DNA from: Rhizobium sp. WSM4643
GTDB taxonomy: Bacteria > Pseudomonadota > Alphaproteobacteria > Rhizobiales > Rhizobiaceae
Assembly (NCBI RefSeq): GCF_025152745.1
Contig: NZ_CP104040.1
Span: 744,001-808,000, forward strand
Length of the DNA stretch: 64,000 bases
Direction of reading: 5' to 3'
Under the pieces are notes generated by a model. That model ran no database searches and had not been told where the DNA came from. It worked only from the letters and a program-made list of their open reading frames with translations. Positions 51,996 through 55,280 of the stretch are shown piece after piece; the first letter of the stretch is position 1, and the number at the start of each line of letters is the position of its first letter. The translations under genes were made by a program, and so were the position numbers.

Positions 51996-52514
51996 TCAGG
52001 CAGGCCGGCGGCCAAACCAATGTGCAAGCCAATGGTCGATCGACAGTTTTCCCGGCCCCCATGCCATGAGCGACAGCGCCATCGCAGCCCAGGTAATGTG
52101 GATCGGCCATCCGTCCGGCACCGTGAGCTCGACGATCAACGTCATGAACAGCAGGCCGGTTGCCGCAAACCGGGTAGCGAAGCCCAGAACCAGCAAGATC
52201 GGAAAGGTGATCTCGGCAGCGCCGGACAGGAAGGCCATGGTTACCGGCGCCGGATAGGCATAGGGACCGCCCGGCAGATGGAGCATGAATTCGTCGGTGA
52301 ACAATGTGACCGCCGTATCGTTCAATTGCAGGAAGCCATCCCACTTCAGAATGCCCGACTTCCAAAAGGGCACGGCCAGAGCGATGCGCACAACCGCCTG
52401 AACGACGCTCGGCTGCGCAAAGGCCCGAACCAGTCTCTGTGCCGTCTCTACAAGTGTGACGATCGGCTGAAGCCTGGCTCTGATCGAAGTCTGTTGGGTC
52501 GTCGATATCATCAT
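51996..52514 (-). CDS. bufD: DoxX-family membrane protein, bufferin cluster (BufD-like)
   Basis: The protein has 172 residues with four hydrophobic helices; FWKSGILKWDGF is the DoxX hallmark. It overlaps bufC by four bases (ATGA), so it is the last gene of the operon. DoxX partners accompany bufferin genes in several proteobacteria. The specific role is not settled. Confidence 0.8.
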   Translation of the reverse strand: MMISTTQQTSIRARLQPIVTLVETAQRLVRAFAQPSVVQAVVRIALAVPFWKSGILKWDGFLQLNDTAVTLFTDEFMLHLPGGPYAYPAPVTMAFLSGAAEITFPILLVLGFATRFAATGLLFMTLIVELTVPDGWPIHITWAAMALSLMAWGPGKLSIDHWLAHWFGRRPA

Positions 52515-53311
52515 GCGTCTCCGAGAGTGATGCCGCAAAATACCCCCGCTTCGATCATGCCAGCCACGCTGGCCGCGATGTCGAACGACGGACAAGCGTC
52601 GATGGCCTTGGCTGCGGCGACACCAAGCGGTTCGCCGGCAATGAGGGAAATCAGGAACGCTGCGCCGCCCAAAGGAAGGTAACGAACCGCCACCTCCATA
52701 TCCGGCCGCGTTATAAGCGCATCTTCCGGGTCGACCACTTCGATCCGGATTATGGAGCCGTCACCGCGATTGGCGGCAAAGATCGTCAGCGCCGGATAGT
52801 CCGACCGAACGATCCTTGTTGCCGGATGCGCTGCAAAGACCAAATCACCGAGACGATCCGGCGGAACGGAAGCAAGAGCATCAGCGGCAAGGGGCTCGAC
52901 ATCCGTTGCGTGGTAGGCGTCCAGCCAAGCCCGTTCGATCCGGGCGACATCGGGAAGCCAGGGCAAGGACCGGGCATATTCGTACTGTTCGATGAACGCG
53001 GGAAAATCCCGGCCATATTCGAAGAGAAGCGGCGATGTCGGTGGCGTGGCGCGCACGTGAAAGCGCGCCATGGCGCGGAAAAACTCCGCCCCCGTCAGGC
53101 GTTGCACCGCCGGGAAAATCCCGGCGAGGGCATCGATCAGACTGACGGTGACGTTGTTGCGGTAGACGTTGTAGCGTTTGATCGCTCCCTTGCCGTTCGG
53201 CCCGACAACGCCGTCGGGCGTCCCAGCGTCCGGGTTGGTCAGGGCCGGCGCAAAATCCGCCGCATAAGTCAGGGGCTCTATGCGGCGAGATGGGGGATCA
53301 AGCCGCAACAT
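52511..53311 (-). CDS. bufC: DUF2063 protein, bufferin partner (BufC/HvfC-like)
   Basis: The protein has 266 residues from the ATG at 53311, which overlaps bufB by 14 bases. Pattern [37 protein letters not shown] is the DUF2063 signature. The family is thought to bring the precursor to the MNIO enzyme. Confidence 0.85.
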
Positions 53312-54224
53312 GACTTTGATCCTGCAACGCGATGGAACCATGGAGATCCATGATCGCCTGCGCTGCGAGGGCCTCGCCACGCAGTATCGGCCAATCGGGT
53401 ATGTTGCTGTCCCACTCGATGAGCGTTGGGATGGGGCCACTACGGCCAATGACGATCTCGTAAAGCTTCCAGACGGCATCGGCGACCGGCCCGTCATGGC
53501 TATCGATCAGCAGCAGCTCGTCCTCGTCGTCAGTCTGCTCGGCGTGGCCTGCGAGATGGATCTCACCAACCGCAGCAATGGGAAAATCGGACAGGTAGTC
53601 GAGCGCTGAAAAACCGTGATTGGTGGCGGAGACGAATACATTGTTGACGTCGAGCAGAAGACCGCAGCCGGTGCGCCGGACGATGGCGCCGATGAACTCG
53701 GTCTCGCTCATCGTCGATTGGCGGAACGTCACATAGGTGGATGGATTCTCCAGAAGGATCGGGCGTCTGATGGTCTCCTGGACTTCCTCGATATGCTCGC
53801 AAACCCGCGCCAGGCTTTCTCGTGTGTAGGGAAGGGGCAGGAGGTCGTTGAGGAAGGTCGTCCGATGCGTCGACCAGGCTAGGTGCTCGGACACCAGAGC
53901 TGGTTCGTAGCGTTCGACGAGAGAGCGGAAACGTTCAAGATGGGCCCGGTCGAGCGGCTGAGGTCCGCCGATCGACATGCACACGCCGTGGAGCGACACC
54001 GGATTGTCACGGCGGATCTGTTCGAGAATACGATGCGGCGGCCCGCCGGCCCCCATATAATTCTCGGCATGGACTTCGAAGAACCCGCGATGAGGCCCCT
54101 CCGCGGCTATGGCGGCAAAATGCTCGTGCTTGAAGCTCGTCCCCGCGAGCCCCTCGATCGGATGGCGGGGAAAGCGGAGAGCAGTTGCCGCAGACGCGGT
54201 CGTTGAAATTCGATCGGTGGTCAT
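53298..54224 (-). CDS. bufB: MNIO enzyme (DUF692), bufferin maturation BufB
   Basis: The protein has 308 residues from the ATG at 54224 (GGAGAG upstream). Metal-ligand motifs of the family are present in order: [63 protein letters not shown] and LIEWDSNIP. MNIOs are multinuclear iron oxidases that convert Cys residues of RiPP precursors. All likely ligands look intact. Confidence 0.9.
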
Positions 54225-54269
54225 GGCGTCTCTCCGCCCCCTCATTGTCATCGCTGTCGCGTGTAGAAA

Positions 54270-54575
54270 TTACATTGCCTTCAGCGTGCCGTGCTTGCCG
54301 TTCGGCAGGACGATGGAGGTGCAGGTGCCGCCCCGTACGAACTTCCAGGAATCGCCCTGGAAGTCGACTGTCGAGGTCCCCTGGCAGGACGTGCCGGCGC
54401 CGGCTGCACAATCATTCTGGCCCTTCAGGGCAACGCCGAAGCATTTTTCCTTGTGAGCGGCGGTTGCAGCGGCGCCCTCAGCTTTGGTGAGCGGTGCGGC
54501 GCCGGCCATCGAAGCAAGGGCGGTGGTGACAGCGCCGGCGAGGACGACGGAGTTGATGGTGGATTTGATGGACAT
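54270..54575 (-). CDS. bufA: Bufferin precursor BufA (DUF2282)
   Basis: The protein has 101 residues from the ATG at 54575. A signal peptide (cleavage near residue 26, MAGA|APL) is followed by the core with four Cys: C45 (KEKCFGV), C56 (QNDC), C64 (GTSC), C85 (GGTC). These are the four positions conserved in bufferins. It precedes bufB by 45 bases. Known bufferins are exported, carry modified cysteines and bind copper. Confidence 0.9.
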
Positions 54576-54624
54576 TGCGGTCTCCCGATGATGGATGGAC
54601 GCTCTCGTTGAGCGCATATTCAGG

Positions 54625-54650
54625 TTCGCAATCTCCCCGACATTCGTTAC
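54625..54650 (-). promoter_or_regulatory. SigF-type ECF promoter upstream of bufA
   Basis: On the minus strand, GTAACG (complement of 54645-54650) is followed after exactly 16 bases by CGAA (complement of 54625-54628). That matches the Caulobacter SigF pattern GTAACC-N16-CGAA but for one base. It sits about 50 bases before the bufA start. Confidence 0.7.
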
Positions 54651-54866
54651 ACCAGTCGCTATCACGAGTTCGTGAAAACTGGTCATGTCACCGGAAACCG
54701 GCACGGCCGCGGCGAGGCCTGCAATTGCTTCTCGCACGCCTGCCGGCGCCCGAAACTCTTCACGTCTGGAGACCCTCCGCTGCAAGCACATGCAGCGCAA
54801 CAAGCAGGCAACTGGGTGCTCCGCGGCAAGGCTCGGGATCGACCTGTAGCCGTCGGCACTGCGCGC

Positions 54867-55280
54867 TCAGCCAGCCATTAGCCTCCCCCAGTTCCGATAC
54901 AGGATGTAACCCGCGACCGCGAAGATCAGCGCTGCGAACAGGCGGTTGAGAATGTTCTTGTAGGCGCTGAGCCGGGTGGCGAGCAGCATGCCGAGTACGC
55001 CGCCGCCGATGCCGCCGCCGATGAATTCGGCGGCAAGCCACCAGTCCACCAAGCCCGAACTGGCATAGTTCAAGGACGTCGCCAGTCCGAACGCACCGAC
55101 GGAGAGGAGCGATGTGCCGATCGCGTTGATCATCGGCATGCCCGTTGCCAGCATGAGGCCGGGAACGATCAAAAAGCCCCCGCCGATGCCGAAGAAGCCG
55201 GAGGCAGCGCCGGCGGCGAGTGCCACGGCGGCGGTGGCAAGGCACATCCTGAGGTCGACCGGACGGCACTCTACCGTCAC
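54867..55280 (-). pseudogene. TauE/SafE permease, C-terminal half only
   Basis: The protein has 137 residues instead of the usual 240-270. It carries the second-half signature ASGFFGIGGGFLIVPGLM and four helices; the first half is missing. Upstream sequence does not extend it. Same strand as bufA, 290 bases before it. Probably a truncated remnant, though a half-size protein is possible. Confidence 0.7.

Follow-up and report, generated by a model that had tools for sequence, protein, structure and literature searches.

The window, that is, the whole 64,000-nucleotide stretch of Rhizobium sp. WSM4643 DNA analysed here, carries on its minus strand four genes, bufA, bufB, bufC and bufD, which follow one another in this order from 54575 to 51996 (Table 1). 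A gap of 45 nt separates bufA from bufB, and the remaining genes overlap, by 14 nt at bufB/bufC and by 4 nt at bufC/bufD. Each product scores above the curated cut-off of a Pfam profile, namely DUF2282 for BufA (PF10048, 2.6e-22), MbnB_TglH_ChrH for BufB (PF05114, 3.4e-105), DUF2063 for BufC (PF09836, 3.3e-24, 85.4 bits) and DoxX for BufD (PF07681, 7.6e-15, 55.8 bits). Gene coordinates and profiles thus agree with the original prediction of a complete operon, in order, with overlaps at the bufB-bufC and bufC-bufD junctions. BufB also passes the NCBIfam bufferin-maturase model NF050167 (381.9 bits; cut-off 310). The profile searches, together with the comparison with relatives described below, bear out the bufferin-type reading, and on sequence grounds this is a complete, ordinary Buf1 cluster. 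Membership of Buf2 was considered for BufA and rejected, as the BufA2 model NF050166 gives 21.8 bits against a cut-off of 60 and the protein has four cysteines, not six or twelve; the oxazolin (Hvf) family was likewise rejected, the NCBIfam models for HvfB, HvfC and HvfX each remaining below their cut-offs. Among RNA families, only two tRNAs reach the gathering score in the window.

Table 1. Features of the bufferin operon and of its candidate regulatory locus
Feature	Coordinates	Strand	Description	Basis
-35 element	54645..54650	-	GTAACG, ECF16/SigF-type promoter	sequence and conservation
-10 element	54625..54628	-	CGAA, 16 nt after the -35 element	sequence and conservation
bufA	54270..54575	-	101 aa, Buf1/DUF2282 bufferin precursor, likely Sec signal peptide	signal peptide by eye
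bufB	53298..54224	-	308 aa, MNIO enzyme (MbnB_TglH_ChrH, bufferin maturase)	
bufC	52511..53311	-	266 aa, DUF2063 partner protein (PME type 1)	
bufD	51996..52514	-	172 aa, DoxX family membrane protein	
sigF-nrsF-nrsF	C3:454-456 kb (L030 7980-6447)	-	candidate regulatory locus	gene order

Residues of the precursor and its maturase

BufA has four cysteines, at positions 45, 56, 64 and 85, exactly the diagnostic set that had been claimed for it. Its N-terminus, judged by eye, resembles a Sec signal, with a positive start, a hydrophobic stretch and AGA-A. In the Buf1 proteins described so far, the two central cysteines are reported to be modified and the outer two to form a disulphide (PMC12452194).

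BufB matches solved MNIO proteins, including 3BWW (6.7e-39), the DUF692 protein 8HCI and MbnB chains; for BufC, the comparison with solved structures gave no match at 0.01. According to PMC13419390, 3BWW is a close relative of HvfB, whose activity is abolished by loss of N175, D242 or H244, near the third iron site. These three residues appear to correspond to N195 (in the LDVNN stretch), D241 and H243 of BufB, a correspondence read off the alignment of BufB with 3BWW, HvfB itself lying outside that alignment. Each of the three is kept in 97% or more of 81 sequences (that of the window included), and the same holds for H52, E54, N55, H79, E113, H114, E159 and N160, as well as for D192, H223, H227 and E270. 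The alignment is therefore consistent with the statement that BufB keeps the MNIO ligands, and the conserved residues probably include the iron ligands, as expected from the family.

The promoter upstream of bufA

The SigF-type promoter GTAACG-N16-CGAA of the original prediction was found as stated (54650-54625), preceded by T and 75 nt ahead of the bufA ATG. The Caulobacter SigF promoter is given as GTAACC-N16-CGAA (PMC3511200) and the ECF16 consensus as (T/C)GTAAC-N17-CGAA, i.e., GTAACN-N16-CGAA (PMC8315932), the form that lies ahead of this operon. In the whole 6.4 Mb genome, however, GTAACS-N16-CGAA has 20 matches against 20 for the reversed pattern. As the pattern is no commoner than its control, the match at bufA taken alone is weak evidence, at chance level, and a fortuitous match, with the operon transcribed from something else, had to be considered.

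What makes this explanation highly improbable is the behaviour of the site among relatives. The best 80 of 574 BufB-related loci yielded 79 with bufA and upstream sequence, 78 of them distinct; locus L038 has no upstream sequence and hence falls outside the 79. The motif is present in 69 of the 78 distinct regions, 68-88 nt ahead of the start codon and with diverged spacers, which measure 16 nt in 61 cases and 15 nt in eight. On the same 78 regions, the reversed pattern gave no match and shuffled sequences 0.17 on average. The nine regions without the exact motif count against our main reading; seven of them have the motif with one mismatch, 67-81 nt ahead of the start, whereas L100 and L101 have neither form.

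A second line of evidence comes from NrsF, the membrane anti-sigma whose genes, with those of the sigma factor, have been described in Buf1 clusters (PMC12452194). Plain presence and absence in 297 family genomes (68 with bufA and NrsF, 88 with bufA only, 39 with NrsF only and 102 with neither) shows a modest link (p 0.005). The link is probably weakened by the many bufA genes of another kind, which lack the motif; the motif itself was therefore tested against NrsF. We sampled 70 of the 156 genomes with bufA, scoring one bufA per genome; 30 came from the set of upstream regions above and 40 were added, 20 chosen without and 20 with NrsF. Motif and NrsF occur together in 38 genomes, NrsF alone in five, the motif alone in none and neither in 27, so that the motif is found in 38 of 43 NrsF-bearing genomes and in 0 of the 27 in which no NrsF was found (Fisher p 1.1e-14, uncorrected for relatedness, related genomes not being independent). 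Some NrsF genes may be missed by this survey, which scored at most 10 candidates per genome and counted sub-cut-off matches as lacking (four of the 297 genomes, one of these among the 70). The five NrsF-bearing genomes without the motif at the scored bufA also count against the main reading, and two of them carry a one-mismatch form. Motif-like sites with one mismatch were seen in six of the 20 added NrsF-lacking genomes; in five of these they lie at 213-276 nt, and in G164 alone the distance is the usual one. Since the place of the motif is conserved across relatives and the motif co-occurs with NrsF, we regard the bufA promoter as genuine, and the chance match was dropped.

The same genome holds another DUF2282-MNIO-DUF2063 set at C1:652-654 kb, and after it comes a membrane-type protein of 157 aa, DoxX-like by eye. 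No ECF16 motif was found in the 250 nt upstream of this second buf1 operon, where the best site has two mismatches, a further point counted against the main reading.

Candidate sigma factors and a possibly divided cluster

Four NrsF genes lie at three places in the genome, at C1:2.58 Mb, at 455 kb on C3 (two in tandem) and at 507 kb on C3, each with an adjoining ECF sigma gene, which makes three sigF loci from among which the cognate of bufABCD has to be predicted. C3 is a 549-kb repABC replicon; like C2 and C4, it has a RepA gene at its start, and the window lies on C1, which has no RepA above the cut-off. No sigma gene was found beside bufABCD in the window. For the matching sigma factor, sought elsewhere in the genome, a candidate was found in the sigF-nrsF-nrsF trio of C3, 51 kb from the second sigF-nrsF copy of that replicon. 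Both C3 sigF genes are themselves preceded by GTAACG-N16-CGAA, ending 14 nt ahead of the ATG.

The C3-borne sigF with its two nrsF genes is most likely the regulator of bufABCD, because three close relatives have orthologues of the trio ahead of bufABCD and on its strand. These relatives are Rhizobium tropici SARCC-755, R. calliandrae CCGE524 and Rhizobium sp. BK376 (L035-L037), in which the order is sigF, nrsFa, nrsFb, bufA; sigF and bufA are 3-6 kb apart, and the interval also holds other genes or remnants. In the genome of the window the trio lies on C3. The C3 genes are 87-88% (sigF), 76-78% (nrsFa) and 78-80% (nrsFb) identical to those in the buf clusters of these relatives (G298, G299 and G300), the bufA of the window is 82-86% identical to theirs, and the bufABCD region shares 76-78% DNA identity and the same promoter with them. 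The two tandem NrsF genes that follow the C3 sigF differ from each other (46-48% identity), and this pair is also kept in the three relatives' clusters.

The DNA similarity of the window to the relatives' buf loci begins close to the promoter or at it (54616-54675), and none to those loci was found further upstream; the C3 locus, for its part, corresponds to the left part of the R. calliandrae cluster, an apparent chemotaxis-protein remnant included. Read most simply, these comparisons suggest one ancestral cluster whose parts came to lie on the chromosome and on C3. Just upstream of the point where the similarity stops lies a TauE/SafE fragment (54867-55280, minus strand, 137 aa) that covers profile positions 127-236 of 237, the C-terminal half; no similar DNA was found in the 2.5 kb upstream in L034. 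In a relative (L036 1762-2334), the apparent chemotaxis-receptor remnant lies between nrsFb and bufA; on C3 it follows nrsFb (L030 5999-6439).

Separation of this kind is not confined to the present genome. Among the matches listed, no more than 6 kb separates bufA from NrsF in 57 of 66 family genomes (of 68 with both), the genome of the window being one of the nine with a greater distance, and NrsF is found within flanks of up to 3 kb in 28 of the best 80 of 574 BufB-related loci. As unlinked layouts occur in other loci too, control in trans would not be unique to this genome.

Bufferin operons driven by ECF16 sigma factors are already known, Caulobacter SigF and Sinorhizobium RpoE7 being reported to drive equivalents (PMC3511200, PMC8224329, PMC6180224). 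The operon is like Caulobacter crescentus CC3254-CC3257, with which it shares all four domains, their order and the type of promoter; but there a single SigF, whose gene adjoins the operon, serves the regulon, while here no adjoining sigma was found and three sigF loci exist. It is also like Sinorhizobium meliloti SMb20530-SMb20527, a four-gene DUF692/DUF2063 operon of a rhizobium, which RpoE7, of the RpoE7-EcfR7 system, is described as driving from an ECF16 promoter, GTAACAT...GCGAATG (PMC6180224); unlike here, that operon runs divergent from its sigma gene. The C3 sigma is only ~42% identical to the sigma of genome L152, whose bufA promoter is almost that of S. meliloti. The layout of the regulators, with the sigma on another replicon, is thus the only unusual part of an otherwise known system, and no such split layout is reported in the open-licence PMC literature searched, which is not proof of its being unpublished.

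The regulator classes used here were defined by pairwise identities and gene order. The sigma/NrsF pair on C1 adjoins genes for a secreted, methionine-rich protein of MXKDX type, for a cytochrome b561 and for a molybdopterin oxidoreductase (MsrP-like genes), the MXKDX label being given, like those of the chemotaxis remnant above and of a CSSC protein below, by eye or after the Brucella paper, with no profile hit in support. This layout resembles that of Brucella BcrS-AbcS/bcrXQP, of the same promoter class, where under HOCl the ECF16 sigma BcrS is reported to drive MsrQP together with a methionine-rich peptide (PMC8315932); the direct BcrS target described there is bcrXQP, not a bufferin. It could be argued, then, that the operon, though real, answers mainly to the chromosomal ECF16 sigma encoded at C1:2.58 Mb and that copper is less its inducer than hypochlorite or oxidised methionine. 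Besides the Brucella precedent, such an argument can draw on Caulobacter SigF, described as driving both bufferins and MsrPQ, and on R. leguminosarum Vaf-46 (L034), the nearest named relative (97% BufB), which has bufABCD and the motif and whose draft genome yielded a single NrsF, of the C1 type, that is, the class beside the methionine-rich protein; this last point counts against the main reading. On the other side, the sigma class present in the buf clusters of the three close relatives is that of C3. The letter after the -10 element points the same way, with CGAAT in 17 of 19 motif hits of C1-class loci and CGAAC in this bufA and both C3 sigF promoters, although the contrast is weak because bufA promoters at large vary there (C 28, T 21, G 15, A 5). 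On balance, we consider control mainly from C1 unlikely and retain the C3 sigF as the probable regulator.

Copper and the proposed mechanism

Our main reading, to which we assign a probability of roughly 0.88 for the whole explanation, is a complete Buf1 operon transcribed from one ECF16 (SigF-type) promoter and probably responsive to copper, with the C3 sigF as its likely sigma factor. By analogy with Caulobacter, envelope stress, most likely excess copper, would release the ECF16 sigma from NrsF, and the released sigma would read the promoter at 54650-54625. As in other Buf1 proteins, BufB with BufC would convert Cys56 and Cys64 of BufA to thiooxazoles, and Cys45 and Cys85 would form a disulphide. 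The peptide is predicted to be exported by Sec and to bind copper outside the cytoplasm, and BufD (DoxX) may have some supporting role.

Both the copper response and the cysteine modification are extrapolated from Caulobacter and other bufferins. In Caulobacter, SigF is described as controlling two DUF2282-DUF692-DUF2063 operons, one of them with DoxX, and a YedY gene (PMC3511200); its bufferin operons are listed as copper-induced and the sigF mutant as copper-sensitive (PMC8224329). For the S. meliloti equivalent, the accessible part of PMC6180224 reports reporter tests with no response to H2O2, cadmium or chromate and does not name copper among them. Related clusters in other bacteria are reported to respond to gold, silver, chromate or cadmium, and the related gig cluster of Cupriavidus metallidurans to have no effect on copper resistance, which is counted against the main reading; the buffered metal might accordingly be not copper but another soft metal or metals (silver, gold), or the peptide might serve mainly against oxidative stress. 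We hold this to be somewhat more doubtful than control from C1, and loss of Caulobacter SigF, as described, harms growth on copper, unlike on chromate and cadmium. Copper binding is the predicted function of BufA; copper may not be the only or the main inducer, since a further ECF16 sigma is encoded in the genome, one whose class is associated with methionine-rich and MsrP-like genes.

A more far-reaching proposal, to which we give slightly less than even odds, is that an ancestral sigF-nrsF-nrsF-bufABCD cluster was split so that the operon came to be chromosomal, its promoter intact, and a plasmid-borne stress sensor acts in trans on a copper RiPP. In this proposal, what in Caulobacter is a single SigF regulon (bufferins plus methionine sulphoxide repair) is here shared out between two ECF16 subclasses, of which one serves copper and the other hypochlorite. 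Beyond a reading by eye, the comparison supports the bufferin promoter in Hyphomicrobiales as an ECF16 promoter. This genome has both ECF16 classes and two buf operons that differ in the presence of the motif, and so offers a clean natural case for asking which of the sigma factors is devoted to copper buffering and which to methionine repair.

On C3, an ECF16-type motif at 461815-461790 ends 52 nt ahead of the ATG of a minus-strand gene (L030 13738-13037) whose product, judged by eye, appears to be secreted and contains a CSSC stretch, a possible further member of the regulon.
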